From: a virus | Direction: 5' to 3' (one strand) | IMG/VR virus record: IMGVR_UViG_3300010885_004898 | Coordinates: 1 to 34,878 of that record | DNA: 34,878 bases | In this document: positions 13,847 through 33,435 of the stretch, one piece after another | Numbering within the stretch: position 1 is the stretch's first letter | How the letters are laid out: each line of letters opens with the position of its first letter | Made by a program: the position numbers and the translations under genes | The notes under the pieces: generated by a model | Seen by the model: only the letters and a program-made list of their open reading frames with translations | Told to the model about the DNA's origin: nothing | Database searches by the model: none

Positions 13847-14320
13847 ATGTCTGACAACTACATTGAAGACGACATCGAAACTGACGACATTGAAGATTCA
13901 GCCAACGATGGAAGCCCCCGTGGTCTCCGCCGTGCAGCGAATAAATCAAAGAAGTTGGAATCGGAACTCGCAGCAGCACGCCGCGAACTAGCGTTTACGA
14001 AGGCAGGAATCAATCCTGATGATCCACGAATGAAGTATTTCGTTCGCGGTTATGACGGAGAGATGACAGCAGATTCGGTACGCCAAGCGGCTCTTGACGC
14101 GGGTTTTCTAACATCACAGGCTTCTGAAAATAGCAGGGTTCAGCAACAGGCAGCCGCCTCGCAGGATCGGGTTATGACGGCGGCAGCAGGCGCAATTATG
14201 GAGGATTCCTCCGAAGAAGCAGCCTACGCCCGTATGGAAGCAGCGATGGAGGAGGGCGGAGTCGATGCAATGTTAGACGTTGCCCGACAGTACGGAATCC
14301 CAATCGCTACCGAACAGTAA
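13847..14320 (+). CDS. Scaffolding protein (putative)
   Basis: This 157-residue acidic protein lies directly before the major capsid gene, the classic position of the scaffold that guides prohead assembly and is then removed. The N-terminus is very acidic (MSDNYIEDDIETDDIEDSAN). Residues 25-50 form a charged coiled-coil-type helix (RRAANKSKKLESELAAARRE), then a Gln/Ala-rich helix and a Glu-rich segment. Composition, length and location all fit a scaffold; there is no sequence signature. The ribosome binding site is the purine-rich AAAGGAAAGGGAAGGG. Confidence 0.7.
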   Translation: MSDNYIEDDIETDDIEDSANDGSPRGLRRAANKSKKLESELAAARRELAFTKAGINPDDPRMKYFVRGYDGEMTADSVRQAALDAGFLTSQASENSRVQQQAAASQDRVMTAAAGAIMEDSSEEAAYARMEAAMEEGGVDAMLDVARQYGIPIATEQ

Positions 14321-14330
14321 AGGAAATACA

Positions 14331-15368
14331 ATGCCTGCTGGTACTGGAACCGCTGGTTCTAATCAGAACGGCCCCGCAACGTCCCCAATGTACTCACCTG
14401 GTGAGATCGTTACCGCTGCTGGTCCGTTGTCCATCAATGCCCCTGCCCCCATTGTCGATATCACCCTTGGTAGCCAGTTTGTTACCAAGGCATACGACCT
14501 TGCGGTCTACCCCGCTCTGCGTCCCGAACTCATTTTCGATCAATTCGCAACGGTTCGCGCAACCAACACCACCCACCGTGGCGGTTCGGTTCGCTTCTCA
14601 TTCGTCGATGACATCAGCGAGCAGACTACTCCGCTCCTTGAGAACCTTGACGTTGACTCCGTAACCCTCAACAGCAAGGCACTCACCGTGTCCATGCGTG
14701 AGTACGGCACGGCAGTCACCAACACCGCCCTCATCCGTGGCACGAGCATGATCTCGCTCGATCCGCTGATCGCAGAGCGCGTGGGCTACAACGCTGGCCT
14801 GTCAATCGACACCCTGTGCCGTACGGCTCTTGATGCCACCACGGTCACCTACGATGACGGCTCCACGGCCACCATCGGTTCCATTGGCACTACGGCCACC
14901 CCGCTTTCGGGTGCGACTCTGCGCCAGGGTGTTGCGCGACTGCGTGCAGCCAACGTTCGTCCGTTGCGTGGCGGTAACTATGTTGCTGTCATTAGCCCGT
15001 ACCAGGCTCAGCAGATCATGTCAGAGACCACTGACACGGGCTGGCGCTGGATGGTTGGATACTCCAACAACGATGCACCGTCAGGCAACAGCGTGTTCAT
15101 GGGTGAAGTTGGAACCTACGAAGGTGTTCGCATCATCGTTAACAACCACCTCACGAACCAGGGTCAGGGCTACCTGATGGGTGCTGAGGCACTTGCTAAG
15201 GCGTTCTCTACGGCTCCTAACTTTGGGCCGAACCCGAAGACTGTGGTTTCTCCCGTAGTCGATAAGTTGAGGCGTTTTGCATCCGTTGGCTGGTACCACC
15301 TCGTTGGGTACTCGGTCTTCCGTGCAGAGGCTCTGCTTCAGATCAAGACTCAAGCAACGCTGGTCTAA
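14331..15368 (+). CDS. Major capsid protein (N4 gp56-like)
   Basis: The ATG at 14331 with GGAA upstream is chosen over an in-frame ATG at 14280 that lies inside the scaffold gene. The 345-residue product has the layout of the N4-gp56-type capsid family: a flexible N-terminus, then DLAVYPALRPELIFDQFATV, a beta segment GGSVRFSFVDD, the SMREYGTAVTNTALIRG region, and a C-terminal domain with GEVGTYEGVRIIVNN. It would form the HK97-fold shell. Codon choice is visibly different from the genes before it, with many C-ending codons, as expected for the most highly made virion protein. A strong hairpin follows 8 bases after the stop. Confidence 0.8.
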   Translation: MPAGTGTAGSNQNGPATSPMYSPGEIVTAAGPLSINAPAPIVDITLGSQFVTKAYDLAVYPALRPELIFDQFATVRATNTTHRGGSVRFSFVDDISEQTTPLLENLDVDSVTLNSKALTVSMREYGTAVTNTALIRGTSMISLDPLIAERVGYNAGLSIDTLCRTALDATTVTYDDGSTATIGSIGTTATPLSGATLRQGVARLRAANVRPLRGGNYVAVISPYQAQQIMSETTDTGWRWMVGYSNNDAPSGNSVFMGEVGTYEGVRIIVNNHLTNQGQGYLMGAEALAKAFSTAPNFGPNPKTVVSPVVDKLRRFASVGWYHLVGYSVFRAEALLQIKTQATLV

Positions 15369-15376
15369 TCTGGTCC

Positions 15377-15419
15377 GACCCCTCCCTCTTCTTTACTCCC
15401 GTTCGGGGAGGGGGGGGTC
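15377..15419 (+). terminator. Strong hairpin after the capsid gene
   Basis: GACCCCTCCCTC (377-388) pairs with the G-rich strand ending GGTC at 15419 to give a 12-bp stem with one wobble pair. A smaller CTCCC/GGGAG hairpin can form inside. No T-tract follows. It would act as a partial terminator or as a 3' stabiliser of capsid mRNA. Confidence 0.5.
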
Positions 15420-15452: not shown

Positions 15453-16592
15453 ATGGCTCCGAAGGATAAGAACTTTCCGATGGCTGGAAAACTTGGCGGC
15501 ATGGGTGGCAAGTACGGTCGTAAGGCTGAGAACCTGACTGCTAAGGAATTGAAGAAGGCTGGTGGCAGTAAGGCTGCTGCTGGTCCTAAGGTATCGATTC
15601 AAGACACTCGCCGCGATTACAGCCGTGGTATCACTCTTGGCCCTAAGGGTAAGCCACTTACGGGTAGCGTCACTCTTGGTAACGGCAACACTGCTGTTTA
15701 CAGGGCTGGCAAGCGCGTCATGAAGGCTACCGCGTTTACCCCCAAGCGCGACGGTGGTGGTGGTGGCGGCGATGGTGGCGATAGTAGAGGAAGCAAAACC
15801 TATAAAGCCCCATCAAAGAATTTGGTAAAGAAAACTGTTTCTGGAGCAGGACGATCTTCTGGTTCATCTGCTGCGGCTGGTATCAGTGGCAGACGCATGG
15901 TTGGCAAGACAACCGCTCCTGGTCCAAAATCTGGTTCTTCTGCTGCTAGTGGCATTGGTAGTTATAAGCCGTCTGTTAAGAAAACTTCTGCTCAAGGTGG
16001 TCCTGCTGTTTATTTAGGTGGTGGGCGTGCTGGAACTTCACAACGTAAGGGTTATACCCCAGATGCGTGGGATATGGATAAGCCATATAGCGCCGCCCAA
16101 GTAGCGGATAAGGCTTTGCTTGTTGCTTCCTTAATTCCTGGTATTGGAGTTGCTGCAAAGGGTGCAAGAACAGCAATGGCAGCGCGCGGTTTGGCTAAAG
16201 TTGGGCTTAAGGGAGTTTCTGGCCGTGCAGCAGATGCTCGTGTTGCTTCTGCTATTAAAGGTTACAAACCAAAGCCTGCTACTTCTTCTGCTAAGCCTGT
16301 TCCCAAAAATCCTGCACCAATTAGACCTGCTGGTTCTAAGCCAGTTCCTAATGCTGGGCCGAAGCGTACTCCACAAACGTCTACTCCTGATAAGCCTGTG
16401 GTAAAGACTCCTGCTCAAAAGGCTGCTGAGACTCGTGCAACTAATAAGGCTAACAAGGCTGCGGAAGCAGCAAAGCAATCTAAGAAGCGTGCTGGCAATA
16501 TTGCCGCGTACAGGCGAAACAGTCTGACTCCCGCTCAGAGAGCGGCTGCTACTCGTAAGGCTAACGCCGCAAAGAAAGGTGGAAAGAAGTAA
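15453..16592 (+). CDS. Very basic Lys/Ala/Gly-rich protein with a hydrophobic segment (379 aa)
   Basis: The ATG at 15453 follows GGGGAAGG. The product has an N-terminal basic part, a glycine run (DGGGGGGDGGDSRGS), Ser/Ala/Gly repeats each holding a G-S-S-A-A-x-G-I core, a hydrophobic, possibly membrane-active stretch at about residues 214-250 (DKALLVASLIPGIGVAAKGA), and a histone-H1-like C-terminus full of K, A and P (KAAETRATNKANKAAEAAKQ). It should bind nucleic acid by charge. Its position right behind the capsid gene suggests packaging with the genome or delivery with it. No family recognised. The next gene starts within its stop codon (TAATG). Confidence 0.75.
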   Translation: MAPKDKNFPMAGKLGGMGGKYGRKAENLTAKELKKAGGSKAAAGPKVSIQDTRRDYSRGITLGPKGKPLTGSVTLGNGNTAVYRAGKRVMKATAFTPKRDGGGGGGDGGDSRGSKTYKAPSKNLVKKTVSGAGRSSGSSAAAGISGRRMVGKTTAPGPKSGSSAASGIGSYKPSVKKTSAQGGPAVYLGGGRAGTSQRKGYTPDAWDMDKPYSAAQVADKALLVASLIPGIGVAAKGARTAMAARGLAKVGLKGVSGRAADARVASAIKGYKPKPATSSAKPVPKNPAPIRPAGSKPVPNAGPKRTPQTSTPDKPVVKTPAQKAAETRATNKANKAAEAAKQSKKRAGNIAAYRRNSLTPAQRAAATRKANAAKKGGKK

Positions 16593-17062
16593 TGGCTATT
16601 GGTGATCCGATACAGAAAAAAATTTCTCAACGGGTTAAGGCTGGCCCTGCTGGTCGTGGTGCTAAGAAGACGATGCCAGTTAAACTCAAGGCGCGTGGTT
16701 CTGCTCCTAAGGTTGCTAAGCCTAAGAGTGAGGCCGCTAAGCAGTTGAGTGTTCTTACTAAGAAGCCTACTGCTATTGCCGCTAGAAAGGCTGCTCTGGC
16801 TAATAAGGTGCAGAGCATGAAGGCTGTTCGTGGTCGTGCGGCTGCGGCATCTGTTCCTACTGGTCGTGGCGCTTCTGGTGCTGCGGCTGGGAAGAAGACT
16901 CCTGGTACAACGACTCGCGGTCAGAGCAACTTTGTTCTTGACGCTCTCCGCAATGCAGCAAACAGTATGACTGGTAATCGTGAGCGTCTTCAGAACGAGC
17001 GTTACAAAAAGGTTATGACTAGCAAAAAGGCTGCTTCTAAGGCTGCAAAGAAGGGTTACTAA
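16592..17062 (+). CDS. Basic histone-tail-like protein (156 aa)
   Basis: Nearly every segment is made of K, R, A, G, S, T and P (GRGAKKTMPVKLKARGSAPK). A short helical piece, NFVLDALRNAANSMTGNRER, lies near the end, followed by a lysine-rich tail. It has no hydrophobic core and is probably disordered when free. It belongs to the run of basic proteins at 15453-17641 and may neutralise packaged DNA or bind host nucleic acid on entry. Function not established. Confidence 0.7.
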   Translation: MAIGDPIQKKISQRVKAGPAGRGAKKTMPVKLKARGSAPKVAKPKSEAAKQLSVLTKKPTAIAARKAALANKVQSMKAVRGRAAAASVPTGRGASGAAAGKKTPGTTTRGQSNFVLDALRNAANSMTGNRERLQNERYKKVMTSKKAASKAAKKGY

Positions 17063-17064
17063 CT

Positions 17065-17214
17065 ATGTGTATGAAGTGTGGATGCTGCACCCCTAACGAT
17101 CATAAGACTGGTGCTACTGACTACGGCAACAATGGTGGTTCCGCTAAGAACGGCATCATTGTTCCTGCTTCGGACACTAAGCCTGGTGGTTACGACGGGA
17201 ACAACGGCTACTAG
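17065..17214 (+). CDS. Small Cys-rich N-terminus protein (49 aa)
   Basis: The ATG at 17065 lies two bases after the previous stop. The product starts MCMKCGCCTPNDHKTGATDY, placing four cysteines and a histidine in the first 13 residues, a likely metal-binding knot. The rest is Gly/Asn-rich (GGYDGNNGY at the end). The stop TAG overlaps the GTG of the next gene. Unknown function. Confidence 0.6.
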   Translation: MCMKCGCCTPNDHKTGATDYGNNGGSAKNGIIVPASDTKPGGYDGNNGY

Positions 17215-17483
17215 TGGCTACTCCTGCGTGGCAGCGGTCTGAAGGCAAGAACCCTAAAGGGGGTTTAAATGCTAAAGGTCGTGCGTCTTACAAGAAAGCA
17301 ACTGGTGGGACTTTAAAGCCTCCTGTTAAGAAGGCTGAAGCGAAGAAGTCTCCTAAGTCTGCTGCCCGTAGGAAGTCTTTCTGTGCCCGTATGGAAGGCA
17401 TGAAGAAAGTTAATACTTCTGCTAAGACTGCAAAGAATCCAAATAGTCGTATCAATAAATCGTTGAGAGCGTGGGATTGCTAA
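17214..17483 (+). CDS. DUF6321-like small basic protein (89 aa)
   Basis: It starts with GTG overlapping the previous stop (TAGTG). The sequence TPAWQRSEGKNPKGGLNAKG, then a GGTLKPPV segment and RRKSFCARMEGMK, with a tryptophan and cysteine at the end, matches my memory of a conserved small phage protein annotated as DUF6321 and common in aquatic phages. It is strongly basic. The biochemical role is unknown. It sits in the basic-protein cluster behind the capsid gene. Confidence 0.7.
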   Translation: MATPAWQRSEGKNPKGGLNAKGRASYKKATGGTLKPPVKKAEAKKSPKSAARRKSFCARMEGMKKVNTSAKTAKNPNSRINKSLRAWDC

Positions 17484-17641
17484 TGAAGAAGGTTGCTTTT
17501 TGGGATAAGCCAAACCCGAAGAAGAAGTCAACTCCGCTATCGCCTAAGCAGAAATCTGCGGCTAAGTCTCGCGCCAAAGCAGCGGGTCGCCCATATCCAA
17601 ACCTTATTGATAATGCTGCTGCTAAGCGGGGTAAGAAGTGA
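17483..17641 (+). CDS. Small basic protein (52 aa)
   Basis: TAATG coupling opens a 52-residue frame, MKKVAFWDKPNPKKKSTPLS to AAAKRGKK. The motif KAAGRPYPNLIDNAAAKR is of a type seen in short conserved phage proteins next to the DUF6321 family, and may be a split-off part of such a protein. It is very basic. Its stop overlaps the GTG of the next gene by four bases. Confidence 0.65.
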   Translation: MKKVAFWDKPNPKKKSTPLSPKQKSAAKSRAKAAGRPYPNLIDNAAAKRGKK

Positions 17642-17970
17642 CTGTTCAGCAGCAACTACTTGGTCGTGGCACATACGGTCCTCGTGTCGTTACTGGTGCT
17701 GATGTTTCTCCGCTGTGGCAGTTTTTTCTTGCTCCTCCTGCCCAGAACTCTATTTTGATTTATAACAATGGCGATGTTGTTGAACAGGCTACTTTTGTAA
17801 ACGATGTTATTAAAGACCCTGACGTTCATACTTATATTCTTGGTGGTACGGATTTTCGTACTGATGTAGGTACGTTTGATTACGATGCGTTGACTGCGGC
17901 TGGCTACACTTGGCGTGATGTGTATAGCGACAATGTTTATGGCGTGCAGTACGACAGTCCGTATAATTAG
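17638..17970 (+). CDS. Hypothetical protein (110 aa), probable head or tail completion role
   Basis: The GTG start at 17638 overlaps the previous stop (GTGA). In contrast to its neighbours the product is acidic and beta-rich (DFRTDVGTFDYDALTAAGYT), with many Tyr and Asp. It is not recognised. Its position before the fibre gene suggests a structural part. Confidence 0.65.
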   Translation: MTVQQQLLGRGTYGPRVVTGADVSPLWQFFLAPPAQNSILIYNNGDVVEQATFVNDVIKDPDVHTYILGGTDFRTDVGTFDYDALTAAGYTWRDVYSDNVYGVQYDSPYN

Positions 17971-17979
17971 GAGTTTGTA

Positions 17980-19575
17980 ATGCCTTCAATTAATTTGCCT
18001 ACACCGAATAAGACTCCTGGTGATGGTGCGCCTGCTGGCGATATGAATCTTGTTATTGAAGGTATTAATACTCTTAACTCTGCTGTTATTGGTATTCCTG
18101 CTGGGCCGACTGGGGCGGAAGGTGCTACTGGTCCGACTGGACCAACTGGTCCTACAGGCGCGGCTTCTACTGTTACTGGACCTACAGGTGCTCAAGGTTC
18201 TCAGGGTGTGACTGGGCCTACTGGCGGTCAGGGTCCTATTGGTCCGACTGGTGCGCAGGGACCTACAGGTGTTCAGGGCTATCAGGGTATTCAGGGACCG
18301 ACTGGTGCTACAGGTCCAACGGGAGCGCAGGGTGTTTCTGTCACAGGGCCAACTGGTCCTACGGGCGCACAGGGTCCTTCTGGTAATGCTAACGCGCATG
18401 ACTCTGCGCATTTGGCTACAACGACTGTGCTTCCTAACTCCCCTGTTTATACTGCTGGAACTTTGGGTGCTGATGGTGGCTACGGTGTTGGGGCGACTAT
18501 TACCGCGACAACAAATGGTCGCCTTAATCTTGATGGTTCTAACGCTCTTAATTCTGAACGGATTCTTGTTAAGAACCAGGCAACTGCTACACAGAATGGT
18601 ATTTATGTAGTTACTGCTCAGGGTTCGGGTAGTTCGTTGTGGAAGTTGACTCGTGCTACAGATTATGACAATCATGTCGCTGAGCAAGTTGACCAGGGAG
18701 ATTATCTTCTTGTCTCCACTGGAGCCGTAAACGGTGGCAGTTCTTGGATCATGAACGTAGCAGGAACTGGCACTAATGGTTCAATCATTATTGGTACTGA
18801 CGACATTCAATTTGCACAGACTGGCGGAATAGGTCCTACAGGTCCAACTGGCCCTACTGGAGCAACTGGTTCTGCGTCTACCGTGACTGGACCTACAGGT
18901 CCCGTTGGTGCAACTGGCCCAACTGGATCTCAGGGTCCTACGGGTGCTCAGGGTATCCAGGGCATTCAGGGTAATACTGGTCCTACTGGTGCGACTGGTC
19001 TTACTGGCGCGACTGGTCCAACTGGTGCTGTTGGTGCAGCGTCTACCGTTACAGGCCCGACTGGTCCTGCTGGCGCTGCTGGGCCAACTGGCCCTACTGG
19101 TGCTGCTGGGGCGGCTTCCACCGTTACTGGTCCCACTGGACCTACAGGGGCTGCGGGAACTAACGGCACGACTGGTCCTACAGGACCCACTGGTGCGGCT
19201 GGGGCAGCATCCACTGTGACTGGACCTACTGGTCCTACTGGTCCTCAGGGAACTCCTGGTACTGCTGGTGGTACTGGCCCTACGGGTCCTCAGGGTGCTA
19301 TCGGTCCAACAGGTGCTGCTGGCGCTGATTCTACCGTCATTGGGCCTACTGGACCCACAGGTGCTTCTGGTGCAGCAAGCACCGTTACGGGACCTACGGG
19401 ACCCACAGGTGCTTCTGGTGCTGCCTCTACTGTCACAGGACCAACGGGTCCAACAGGACCGACTGGTGCAGCCTCTACGGTTACAGGTCCAACTGGTGCA
19501 ACTGGCGCTACTGGACCAACTGGACCATCTGCTGCTGATCCTTTTAGTGTTGTTTTAATGCTAGGCGGCATGTAA
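17980..19575 (+). CDS. Collagen-like fibre protein (531 aa)
   Basis: TTAGGAG lies upstream of the ATG. Residues 1-41 form a head domain. Residues 42-135 and 285-517 are Gly-X-Y collagen repeats, mainly GPT and GAT, broken repeatedly by an A-STVTGP unit seen about nine times. Between them (about 136-284) is a globular domain with [20 protein letters not shown] and [11 protein letters not shown], a pattern I associate with tail-fibre or fibritin-type domains. The C-terminus ends [14 protein letters not shown]. Collagen repeats form trimeric rods, so this should be a stiff trimeric fibre on the tail or capsid. The next gene, overlapping its stop, is a glycosyltransferase that may decorate it. 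Confidence 0.85.
18103..18384 (+). repeat. Collagen-like coding repeat, block 1
   Basis: Imperfect 9-base periodicity encoding Gly-Pro-Thr, Gly-Ala-x and Gly-x-Gln triplets, residues 42-135 of the fibre. The DNA varies at third positions, so protein rather than DNA is under selection. Confidence 0.85.
18832..19530 (+). repeat. Collagen-like coding repeat, block 2
   Basis: Residues 285-517 of the fibre, with about eight recurrences of a module of the form [14 protein letters not shown]. Near-identical modules in the last third (19360-19500) suggest recent duplication and scope for length variation by recombination. Confidence 0.85.
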
Positions 19576-20624
19576 TGAAAATTGCTGTCTACGCTATTGC
19601 CAAGAATGAAGCACAGTTTGTGCAACGGTGGTTTGATTCCGCTAAGGAAGCCGATTCACTGCATATCCTAGATACTGGTTCATTTGATAACACTGTCACT
19701 CTGGCTCGTGACTTAGGTGTTGATGTGGCGCGGTGGGAGATTAGTCCGTGGCGGTTTGATAAAGCACGAAACATGTCGCTTGATCTTGTCCCTGAGGACA
19801 CTGATTTGTGTATAGCACTAGACATGGATGAAGTTTTGGTTGAGGGCTGGCGGGAACATTTAGAGGCTGCCTATGCTGACGGTGTTACGCGCCCCCGATA
19901 CAAGTACACATGGTCCTGGGTAGGTAGCAATCCTGGGCTGGTGTATGGCGGAGACAAAATTCATGCCCGTCACGGCTATTACTGGAAACATCCCGTCCAT
20001 GAGGTCATTACCCCTAAGGACCCTGAACGAGAGGTACAAGGCTGGTATGGGCTGGAAATCCATCATCACCCTGATAACACAAAGTCTCGCGGTCAGTATC
20101 TCCCCCTTCTTGAACTTGCTGTCAGTGAAGACCCAGAAGATGACAGGAACTCTCATTACCTTGCGCGGGAATACTTCTTCGCTGGACGATTAGATGAGGC
20201 AAAGGCTGAGTTTCAGCGGCATCTAGGTTTGGAGTCGGCTAGGTGGGGTGCCGAGAGGGCGCAGTCGTACCGTTACTTGTACAAGATTGATAAGCATCAT
20301 CTGTGGTTAGCGCGTGCGTTGGAGGAGGACCCTGGCCGCAGGGAGACTCTTTTGGACTATGCGTTCTACTGGTATACGTATGAGAACTGGGCTGAGTGCC
20401 TGAAGTATGCGACCGCTGCTTTGACAGTCAAGGAGCGGCCTTTGGAGTATTTGACTGAGGCTGAAGCATGGGGGCCGCTGGCTCATGACTTGGCTGGCAT
20501 AGCGGCATTTAAATTGGGTTATTACCAGCAGTCTGCTTATCACGGCATGGAAGCGTTAAAGTTGTCACCTTATGAGGATAGACTTGTCAATAATCTAGAC
20601 CAGTATAGGAAGGCAGCGGCATGA
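19575..20624 (+). CDS. Family 2-like glycosyltransferase with helical-repeat C-terminus
   Basis: A 349-residue protein. Residues 5-12 (VYAIAKNE), 32-40 (LDTGSFDNT) and the acidic ALDMDEV (81-87, with the DxD-type D83/D85) are the hallmarks of a GT-A, GT2-type fold that uses a nucleotide sugar and a metal. Residues from about 200 are helix pairs resembling TPR repeats (NSHYLAREYFFAGRLDEAKA), usual for protein-binding. It overlaps both neighbours (TAATG at the fibre stop, ATGA at the next gene), so it is made with the structural proteins. Glycosylation of the collagen-like fibre is the simplest reading of this context but is inference. Modification of a host glycan is the alternative. Confidence 0.8.
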   Translation: MKIAVYAIAKNEAQFVQRWFDSAKEADSLHILDTGSFDNTVTLARDLGVDVARWEISPWRFDKARNMSLDLVPEDTDLCIALDMDEVLVEGWREHLEAAYADGVTRPRYKYTWSWVGSNPGLVYGGDKIHARHGYYWKHPVHEVITPKDPEREVQGWYGLEIHHHPDNTKSRGQYLPLLELAVSEDPEDDRNSHYLAREYFFAGRLDEAKAEFQRHLGLESARWGAERAQSYRYLYKIDKHHLWLARALEEDPGRRETLLDYAFYWYTYENWAECLKYATAALTVKERPLEYLTEAEAWGPLAHDLAGIAAFKLGYYQQSAYHGMEALKLSPYEDRLVNNLDQYRKAAA

Positions 20625-26339: not shown

Positions 26340-26798
26340 ATGGCTGAGGAAATGATGGAAGAGGTGACTCTTGCTGAGTGTCTGAAGACTCTTCTGGGCA
26401 ACGAGGTTGCTATGTATTTGAAGGCGCATGGGTTTCATTGGAATGTTGAGGGGCCTATGTTCTCTCAGTTTCATGAGTTTTTTCAGGAAATTTATGAGGA
26501 TGTGTATTCCAGTATTGATCCGACTGCGGAGAACATTCGTAAACTGGATCAGTTCGCTCCTTTTACGTTGCCAACTTTGGATCGTCTTCGTGAGGTAAGC
26601 GATAACAAGACTAGTACTGATCCTATAGCAATGTGTGCTGACCTGTTAGAGGCTAACGATATGCTTCTCGAGTGTATTGATGAGTGCTACCAGTTGTCTC
26701 AAGATGAGAACCAGCAAGGCATCGCTAACTTCCTGGCTGAGCGTGACAACATGCACAAGAAGTGGCGTTGGCAGTTGAAAGCAACTCTCAGGAATTAG
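26340..26798 (+). CDS. dps: Dps-family ferritin-like protein
   Basis: 152 residues. His33, His45, Asp60 and Glu64 (in HWNVEGP, FHEFF and SSIDPTAE) have the same spacing (12, 15, 4) as the E. coli Dps iron-site residues H51, H63, D78 and E82. Dps dodecamers oxidise ferrous iron with peroxide and protect DNA. The usual lysine-rich DNA-binding N-terminal tail is absent; here the N-terminus is acidic (MAEEMMEEVT). It starts two bases after the endolysin stop, so it is probably expressed late. It is likely an accessory (moron-type) gene protecting the infected cell or supplying iron chemistry. Confidence 0.9.
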   Translation: MAEEMMEEVTLAECLKTLLGNEVAMYLKAHGFHWNVEGPMFSQFHEFFQEIYEDVYSSIDPTAENIRKLDQFAPFTLPTLDRLREVSDNKTSTDPIAMCADLLEANDMLLECIDECYQLSQDENQQGIANFLAERDNMHKKWRWQLKATLRN

Positions 26799-31801: not shown

Positions 31802-32743
31802 TTATCGGGCGCGTACCTTGCGAATGTCCAAACGGGTGTACCCCTGCTTGTCAAACGATTCTACGCGGCTGGGCTGTACTTCTACCCATCGTACCTGCCA
31901 GGAGCCTGTGGAGCCGTTAACTCCAGCGAGCATGGCTCCTGCCTCGTCTTTCATTTGCTTGGCTGTCTTCTCCATGCCACGGGCTTCTGTGTACATGTCT
32001 ACGGCTGAGAGCAGTTCAGGATCGCTAATCTGTTCTCCTCCGTCGTTGATTGCTAGTCCTCCACGGCAGGCTGTGAAGTAGGAGCAGATACGCTCACATA
32101 CCGCAGATGGTATATCGCGGGATGCGTCTTGGTTGTGCATAACGGCGTACGTTACATCGGTTACCCAGGAGTCGATCTCGTCGGTGAGTGTGGGGTCCCA
32201 CAGTTCGGTGTCTGTGAGGATTCCTTCGTCTTTGCCTGAGCGGTCAAGGAAGGCGTTGCCCACGTAGAGGGGCTTGTCTGGGTTGAGTAGCCCTTCCGCT
32301 ATTGCTCCCAGTACGTACAGGTGGCGCTGGTACTTGTGGGAGAGCGATGCTCCCTCACGCTTAGCCCATGCCAGACCGTCCTTGGTCTTGAGGTCTAGCA
32401 GGGTGTTGTCCTCAGGGATGATGATGTCGGGGTGACCGCTGATTGTCGCTCCTGAGGGGAGGGTAGCGGTGACCTTGATGTGGTCGATGCTGCCCAGTAG
32501 CCAGTTGGGAAACATTTTTTTCATGGCTTTCTCTGCATAGTCATGAATTGCTGTTCCGATAGCAGCAGGCATGATTGGCGTGGAGTCGGTCTGTTCTACT
32601 CCCTTGACCATGAGGACTGCCTTCTGTCGGCAGAACCCAATATCGCTGGGTCCCAGAATGCCGTGGTTGCTTTGGATAGAGCGGTCGCTGCCGTCGCTGT
32701 AGGCGCGGATAGCAGCACCGATGAGTTCTCCGTAGTTCTTCAT
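31802..32743 (-). CDS. RecB/Cas4-like PD-(D/E)XK exonuclease
   Basis: The ATG at 32743 overlaps the annealing-protein stop (ATGA), and is preferred to one at 32785. 313 residues. Motifs: GTAIHDY (His67), SGHPDII (Asp106), LLDLKTKDG (Asp117, Lys119) and QRHLYVL, the order of the RecB-type nuclease core. Cys38 and the C-terminal CERICSYFTAC (Cys216, 220, 226) resemble the iron-sulphur cluster of Cas4/AddB nucleases, with a slightly different spacing. Together with the annealing protein it should form a Red-like recombination pair: resection then strand annealing. Confidence 0.85.
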   Translation of the reverse strand: MKNYGELIGAAIRAYSDGSDRSIQSNHGILGPSDIGFCRQKAVLMVKGVEQTDSTPIMPAAIGTAIHDYAEKAMKKMFPNWLLGSIDHIKVTATLPSGATISGHPDIIIPEDNTLLDLKTKDGLAWAKREGASLSHKYQRHLYVLGAIAEGLLNPDKPLYVGNAFLDRSGKDEGILTDTELWDPTLTDEIDSWVTDVTYAVMHNQDASRDIPSAVCERICSYFTACRGGLAINDGGEQISDPELLSAVDMYTEARGMEKTAKQMKDEAGAMLAGVNGSTGSWQVRWVEVQPSRVESFDKQGYTRLDIRKVRAR

Positions 32744-33435
32744 GCTGATGCCTTCCCCACGTTCGCTACTGCCTTGTCTAGCCACTTAGCGAGAGTCACG
32801 CCGCCGTACACCCAATCAGTTACACCTTCAGCGTTCATGCGCTGCTTGATAGCAAGCAGGTTGATGGTGTCGCCTTCAGAGATGGAGGCTTTCATTTCCT
32901 CAATCCACACGCCAGCGCCAGGGTTGTCCTGCACGCCGCCCGAGTTCTCTGTCACAAGAGGTGCGGGTGCGCCTTCTGGCGGGGTGTCACGATCTAGGGT
33001 CTTGCCAACTACGTCAGCGGTTGCCCCGTCGTTGTATAGGGATAGACCGAACTGGGTTCCCAGGTTGATTGCTGCTCGCTTGAGCGCGTCTGACTCAGCA
33101 GTTTTGACTGCCATGTCGTGGGCTTCGCCGCGTTGCGGTAGTGATGCTGATCCGACAGCGGCTTCCGTGTAGGTGCAGTTAAGTGATGGGATGGATAGCC
33201 GCAAAACTACTTTGTAGCCAACATTCCATTGGGCTTTCTCGTTCTTCTCCTCAAATGCCATGTGCGAGCCTATGACTTCGGCTGACCAGCCACCGAACCC
33301 GAAAATGCGGATGAGGTGGGCTTTGACATCCCAGGCTTCTAGGTAACTGAGGCTACGTCCTGCCTGTGATCGTTTGGCAATTCTGCTGCCGTTGAGGGGC
33401 TTGAGCAGTTGCTCGTATTGTGCATTAGTAAGCAT
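32740..33435 (-). CDS. Rad52-like single-strand annealing protein
   Basis: 231 residues. Residues 31-51 (YLEAWDVKAHLIRIFGFGGW) and 88-134 (TYTEAAVGSASLPQRGEAHD, then KTAESDALKRAAINLGTQFG and LSLYNDG) are the Rad52/Rad22 family core, including the highly conserved ESDALKRA helix. Such proteins form rings that anneal complementary DNA. The C-terminal 95 residues are a Pro/Gly linker and a small helical end (GGVTLAKWLDKAVANVGKAS). The start has AGGAG. Its leader shares a 16-base element with the gene at 127. Confidence 0.9.
   Translation of the reverse strand: MLTNAQYEQLLKPLNGSRIAKRSQAGRSLSYLEAWDVKAHLIRIFGFGGWSAEVIGSHMAFEEKNEKAQWNVGYKVVLRLSIPSLNCTYTEAAVGSASLPQRGEAHDMAVKTAESDALKRAAINLGTQFGLSLYNDGATADVVGKTLDRDTPPEGAPAPLVTENSGGVQDNPGAGVWIEEMKASISEGDTINLLAIKQRMNAEGVTDWVYGGVTLAKWLDKAVANVGKASA

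Follow-up and report, generated by a model that had tools for sequence, protein, structure and literature searches.

Basic proteins encoded behind the capsid gene of a small aquatic phage as candidate internal head proteins

Genes and features of the post-capsid locus

The window analysed here, i.e. the whole 34,878-bp IMG/VR virus record IMGVR_UViG_3300010885_004898, is a 34.9-kb fragment from a small aquatic phage, and as relatives reach 43.9 kb, the phage genome is probably larger than the window. On the + strand, the window encodes a terminase, a weak portal match, a 1,802-aa protein, an acidic 157-aa protein and the major capsid protein, and this series is continued on the same strand by a block of five genes, an acidic 110-aa protein, a collagen-like fibre and more structural genes (Table 1). 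Judged by its position before the capsid gene, the acidic 157-aa protein is likely the scaffold, and it is a possible partner of the basic proteins described below. The capsid protein is 68-92% identical to those of 13 aligned relatives, and its ORF would be longer if it began at the upstream TTG at 14280. An actinobacterial host appears likely, since a MAG contig labelled Actinomycetales encodes an 84%-identical capsid protein and carries the same kind of basic cassette at the same spot. Elsewhere in the window, a ferritin-like (Dps-type) protein is encoded at 26340-26798 (Pfam Ferritin, E=8e-18), a glycosyltransferase-like gene at 19575-20624 (phrog_13126, E=1e-103) lies within the structural operon and adjoins the collagen-like fibre gene with its long Gly-Pro-Thr repeats, and a Rad52-family annealing protein is encoded on the - strand near the window end (32740-33435, E=1.5e-25). 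An Rfam scan of the whole window gave no match.

Table 1. Positions of the capsid gene, the basic gene block and neighbouring features in the window
Feature	Positions	Strand	Remarks
Acidic 157-aa protein	13847..14320	+	pI 4.3, net -14; phrog_7813, E=2e-13, function unknown there
Major capsid protein	14331..15368	+	phrog_1357, E=7e-41; Phage_capsid_3, E=3e-10
Capsid N-arm segment LGSQFVTKAYD	14466..14498	+	GSQFVTK.YDL invariant in 14 aligned capsid proteins
GC-rich hairpin	15377..15419	+	15-bp outer stem; MFE -34.2, z -2.9
Gene 1	15453..16592	+	379 aa, net +60, Lys/Ala-rich tail
Gene 2	16592..17062	+	156 aa, net +32, Lys/Ala-rich
Gene 3	17065..17214	+	49 aa, neutral, begins MCMKCGCC
Gene 4	17214..17483	+	89 aa, net +20, DUF6321 (PF19846)
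Gene 5	17483..17641	+	52 aa, net +14, YPNL[IV]DN module (phrog_34011)
Acidic 110-aa protein	17638..17970	+	downstream border of the cassette; marker in every locus examined

The block consists of five consecutive + strand ORFs (15453-17641) that follow straight after the capsid gene and either overlap or lie 0-2 bases apart. The products of genes 1, 2, 4 and 5 have a pI of 11.0-11.8 and a net charge of +15.8 to +26.9 per 100 aa, whereas the others among the 28 genes of the window that were examined stay at or below +5.5 per 100 aa, with mostly acidic products from the structural genes. In comparisons with relatives, third-codon-position changes dominate (first, second and third positions: 7/5/38 for gene 4 versus relative L024, and 2/1/14 for gene 5 versus L002), which identifies the ORFs of the block as real genes. 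Codon-position statistics moreover reveal a protein-level constraint on genes 3-5 and a fast evolution of gene 1.

Gene 1 has an N-terminal module (VSIQDT...LGPKGKPLTGSVTLGNGNTAVYRAGKRV) in common with relatives, and its residues 217-235 form a hydrophobic segment (VADKALLVASLIPGIGVAA, KD19 1.65). Hydrophobic 19-residue segments also occur in one larger basic cassette protein of each of the relatives L006, L007, L011, L016, L017 and L022; there is little sequence similarity between the segments of gene 1 and of these six proteins, and a membrane role of the proteins that carry them is possible. Homologues of gene 1 were not found in isolate phages, nor were homologues of gene 2 among the other 24 cassettes that are introduced below. 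A weak match of the C-terminal end of gene 1 to phrog_12582 ('head protein') was given no weight, because it covers a low-complexity Lys/Ala stretch, and genes 1 to 3 matched no family in a Pfam scan. The family of gene 3 comprises 35-51-aa proteins that start with MCxxCGC, and the CxxCxC motif of gene 3 possibly binds metal. The start codon of gene 5 is most plausibly ATG 17483 and not GTG 17471, and the gene product matches phrog_34011 over the full length (E=5e-24, profile positions 2-54 of 55).

Gene 4 is a full-length, stand-alone member of the DUF6321 family (E=1.2e-24, 87.1 bits, with a curated cut-off of 28.5) and is 75-97% identical to the DUF6321 proteins of the other cassettes; the PHROGs on this domain are 4689, 727, 11180 and 3477. 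In an alignment of 43 sequences, the conserved core GGLN..GR, C57.R and PNSRINK.LR.W.C is present in gene 4, and Cys 57 and Cys 89 are invariant. AlphaFold2, supplied with these 43 sequences, confidently models DUF6321 as a compact helical domain (mean pLDDT 89.4), and gene 4 is therefore predicted to encode a folded basic domain rather than a histone tail. Foldseek returned no match of the model to the PDB at E<=10, and a profile search for a structural homologue in the PDB gave none either. In a viral structure library, Foldseek matched the model almost only to DUF6321 proteins; a weak match in this library was a viral ferritin/DPS protein. It is thus the charge of the cassette proteins that suggests DNA binding, since the Pfam scan at E<=1 detected no HU, H-NS, histone-like or other known DNA-binding domain, and since DUF6321 matched no solved structure. 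The cassette did not match PADLOC models of defence or anti-defence systems, and a literature search on DUF6321, DUF5872 and DUF6496 yielded no paper naming DUF6321 and one incidental mention of DUF5872.

The preliminary description of this DNA had portrayed four of the five products as basic and histone-tail-like, one of them with an additional hydrophobic segment, and the fifth as a Cys-knot protein. The basic character, which sets these genes apart from the other genes of the window, and the hydrophobic segment, which is that of gene 1, were borne out. The comparison with histone tails may be apt for genes 1 and 2, but it does not suit the folded DUF6321 protein of gene 4 or gene 5 with its conserved family. 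For a cystine-knot miniprotein, six or more cysteines in knot spacing are required, and as gene 3 has four cysteines only, all of them within MCMKCGCC, no such knot is possible.

In all 24 loci tested, including the window, the capsid stop codon is immediately followed by a GC-rich hairpin, the stem sequences of which differ. The z-scores against mononucleotide shuffles are between -2.3 and -7.3 in the 23 relatives and -4.2 in the cyanopodovirus P-SCSP1k, and as the stems are not in register in a MAFFT alignment, these values and the hairpin claim as such refer to separate folds of each hairpin. A generic terminator scan did not call the hairpin of the window. Such a structure may cause partial termination, or it may stabilise the mRNA.

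Conserved and exchanged modules in the cassettes of relatives

A capsid-protein search of viral contigs gave 25 related loci, 24 of which have downstream sequence; together with the window, these represent 25 cassettes with 134 genes. In each relative, 4-8 small ORFs are situated between the capsid gene and the gene of the 110-aa acidic protein. Basic genes make up 121 of the 134, and the net charge per cassette ranges from +43 to +213 (mean +109), whereby the gene tiling was scored in favour of Lys/Ala/Gly-rich frames and may therefore be off for single starts and for a few genes; the named families are unaffected, because they do not depend on the tiling. DUF6321 is found in 23 of the 25 cassettes, the Cys family of gene 3 in 22, the YPN module of gene 5 in 14, DUF6496 in 8, and other modules in 2-6. 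Modules of the Pfam families DUF6496 and DUF5872, the latter with a match slightly below the curated cut-off, occupy the same position in cassettes of relatives and are absent from that of the window. Genes 3-6 of the relatives L003 and L018 are 97-100% identical, while their genes 1-2 are largely unrelated, and this pattern characterizes the cassette as a mosaic of swappable modules. In the Streptomyces phage FlowerPower, which has a related capsid protein, acidic genes follow directly after the capsid gene and there is no basic cassette, and the cassette is therefore not a trait of the whole capsid lineage.

A short LGxxFVTKSY-type leader, which resembles the capsid N-arm segment, is present on 13 proteins in 13 of the 25 cassettes, and the cassette of the window has none. 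In the small cassette ORFs, the motif is found near the start, at residues 6-9. A six-frame translation of 1.25 Mb of fetched DNA contains 40 copies of the pattern F[VIL]T[KR][SA]Y, a count in which L047 repeats a contig already counted, and all copies are in capsid proteins or small cassette ORFs, always on the + strand. A longer leader pattern was detected in 12 stretches of all IMG/VR, ten of them on contigs of our set; the two others are L116 and L123, and L123 has no such cassette. The leader precedes quite different bodies, namely YPN, HPGF, KLDG, VKADYGD and two further ones, and the same body can exist with or without it (YPN in 4 versus 10 cases, HPGF in 2 versus 3, KLDG in 2 versus 2). 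A 17-residue ORF at L015:2304-2357 comprises the leader, in the form MASLAETFVTKSYEKGK, but lacks a body, and it may be a remnant or a mini-gene. As leader and capsid gene differ in codon usage within one genome, the leader is a kept peptide and not a fresh copy of the capsid N-arm. An AlphaFold2 model of the capsid protein had a mean pLDDT of 43, and its N-terminal half was unusable for placing the FVTKAYD segment.

DUF6321 in other phages and its possible presence in virions

DUF6321 is encoded in 477 phage records, mostly of cyanophages, and it matches at least 600 stretches of viral contigs, as does the YPN module; phrog_34011 has relatives in at least 504 viral stretches. A tblastn search with gene 5 against 50,697 isolate phage records gave no match, and no DUF6321 was found in the plasmids searched. 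Gene 5 is a full-length member of phrog_34011, and only the arrangement is different, as four relatives have this module joined to the leader. Gene 4 is a stand-alone DUF6321 protein, whereas cyanomyoviruses have the domain at or near the end of proteins of 430-990 aa. On 80 further viral contigs, DUF6321 was encountered near YPN (16), DUF5872 (11) and DUF6496 (10) modules. Among 57 large upstream neighbours of DUF6321 on other viral contigs, the major head protein is the commonest family; portal, terminase and adaptor families as well as endolysins are also represented. In the Pelagibacter phages HTVC033P, HTVC035P and Lederberg, DUF6321 is found by lysis-type genes (peptidase, amidase) and no annotated capsid gene adjoins it.

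A parallel in gene order is offered by the MPP-C cyanopodoviruses of the P-SCSP1 group. In P-SCSP1k and P-SCSP1u, whose genes at this site are identical, DUF6321 comes directly after the capsid gene and is followed by a second tiny basic gene, and the complete order is capsid gene, hairpin, tiny Lys-rich ORF, DUF6321, tiny basic gene and tail gene. The Lys-rich ORF in the interval between the capsid gene and DUF6321 is unannotated and has 23 codons (L112:5876-5947 in P-SCSP1k, identical in P-SCSP1u; MPYGKGTYGSKVGRPPKKKKKKK). Both phrog_11180 and phrog_28131 match DUF6321 as well as the second module of P-SCSP1, and these two modules are linked by the fact that other phages fuse both in one protein. 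The P-SCSP1 group differs from our clade by its unrelated T7-like backbone and by other partner modules, and neither a leader nor a Cys protein was seen in it.

The presence of a DUF6321 protein in virions is supported indirectly, via a label in another phage. ORF29 of S-SCSM1 (517 aa) has a C-terminal DUF6321 domain (E=3e-22) and is labelled 'virion protein' in the record. According to the S-SCSM1 study, 45 virion proteins were detected by MS (PMC9602691), and as the record contains about 48 such labels, which is close to this number, the label probably marks MS detection. The DUF6321 protein of S-B43 is annotated as structural. The virion of S-SM1 was also analysed by MS (PMC3037559), but the DUF6321 protein of this phage, GC 119, has no label other than 'hypothetical' and was thus apparently not detected. 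The cryo-EM capsid of P-SCSP1u has no decoration protein (PMC10575957), and as this phage has the DUF6321 gene, an ordered exterior role of DUF6321 as decoration is disfavoured. A virion-associated protein need not be inside the head, since the DUF6321 gene of cyanomyoviruses is located beside tail-fibre and terminase genes.

Possible roles of the cassette proteins

Phage T4 packages small, basic internal proteins that are poorly conserved among relatives, with about 360 copies each, and its capsid targeting leaders of about 10 residues are able to bring nearly any protein into the head (PMC9026906, PMC7697877). The cassette is similar to the T4 ip locus (IPI, IPII, IPIII) in that several small, basic and poorly conserved proteins are encoded per genome, in that about half of the relatives carry a short N-terminal leader on different bodies, and in the size and charge of genes 2, 4 and 5 (52-156 aa, net +14 to +32), with gene 1 being larger. 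With this locus as the closest model, we propose with moderate confidence that the block encodes packaged internal head proteins, which would work like those of the T4 ip locus and be unrelated to them in sequence; Pfam and PHROGs scans at E<=1 indicated no homology to IPI, IPII or IPIII. There are also differences: the cassette lies directly behind the capsid gene, its leader resembles the capsid N-arm and is missing in the window and in about half of the relatives, and no head protease was recognised in the window, which makes a cleavage of the leader doubtful.

From these comparisons, we infer how interior location, DNA binding, leader function, hairpin effect and injection might be connected. 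Capsid gene and cassette would share a transcript, in which the GC-rich hairpin between them may reduce the output of the cassette. The basic proteins would be drawn into the prohead by an affinity for either the acidic scaffold-like protein or the inner capsid surface, aided in about half of the relatives by the leader. Inside the head, they would neutralise some of the charge on the packaged DNA. With a net charge of about +126 per set and an assumed 400 copies of each protein, some 50,000 positive charges would face about 86,000 phosphates of a genome of about 43 kb, which is an upper-end value of roughly 60%; with an assumed 60 copies of each, it would be less than 10% of the phosphates. 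Injection along with the DNA might then allow some of the proteins to act in the host, and this would account for the rapid swapping of many modules. Beyond this, the N-arm-like leader could be part of a modular payload system of small podoviruses that interchangeably loads small basic proteins around a conserved DUF6321 core protein with a new fold, as an independently evolved counterpart of T4 targeting, but this extension is tentative.

The preliminary description had also proposed a packaged nucleoprotein set, and the data are compatible with this proposal. Conservation of the block, which had been named beforehand as a check, was found in all 24 readable relatives and partly strengthens the idea, as do the DUF6321 genes that directly follow the capsid gene of unrelated phages and the virion label in S-SCSM1. 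A uniform histone-tail character and the supposed rarity did not hold: what was thought to be unusual for a phage this small is seen in all related loci and in the 37.8-kb P-SCSP1 phages.

What alternatives exist for internal head proteins? The cassette proteins might be packaged primarily to act in the host, as anti-defence factors or by nucleoid or membrane targeting, with basicity serving to bind host nucleic acid. The fast swapping of modules, the lineage-specific gene 2 without homologue in the 24 relatives, the hydrophobic segments in gene 1 and in a larger basic protein of six relatives, and the precedent of T4 IPI as a small injected restriction inhibitor (PMC9026906) would agree with such effectors, but DUF6321 (23/25) and YPN (14/25) are strongly conserved, DUF6321 is, unlike typical arms-race effectors, shared by phages of very different hosts, and the cassette has neither a PADLOC match nor an enzymatic domain, which makes this explanation unlikely. 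We regard it as quite improbable that the proteins are nucleic-acid chaperones or nucleoid modifiers that are made late in infection and never packaged. Co-expression of basic proteins at a late stage, the 'hypothetical' label of S-SM1 GC 119 and the DUF6321 genes by lysis-type genes in HTVC033P, HTVC035P and Lederberg can be reconciled with this idea, but the labels in S-SCSM1 and S-B43, the strict post-capsid position in this clade and in P-SCSP1, and a leader that is like the capsid N-arm all point to the virion.

Small genes right behind a capsid gene often encode decoration proteins, and the cassette proteins could thus act as cement on the outer capsid surface. However, their very high positive charge and the variable combination of several modules, which is ill-suited to a lattice-matched cement, render such a role highly unlikely, and P-SCSP1u has DUF6321 together with a second basic gene after its capsid gene, yet no decoration protein on its cryo-EM capsid (PMC10575957). 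The fast divergence of gene 1 and the restriction of gene 2 to the phage of the window within our set could be taken as signs that the block consists of low-complexity Lys/Ala/Gly ORFs that have no function and drift at their post-capsid site. For the block as a whole this is barely credible, as it is present in all loci with DUF6321 proteins that are 75-97% identical across cassettes, and for genes 3-5, with their strong third-position bias, functionless drift is refuted.

Among the unexplained genes of aquatic phages, those of DUF6321 and its neighbour modules are frequent, and the link to a post-capsid locus, a virion label and an undecorated cryo-EM capsid converts a 'hypothetical protein' into a testable claim on proteins that are packed with the DNA. 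If internal head proteins are indeed what the cassette encodes, the protein payloads of small podoviruses would follow a logic comparable to that of T4, with the N-arm-like leader as a candidate cargo tag.
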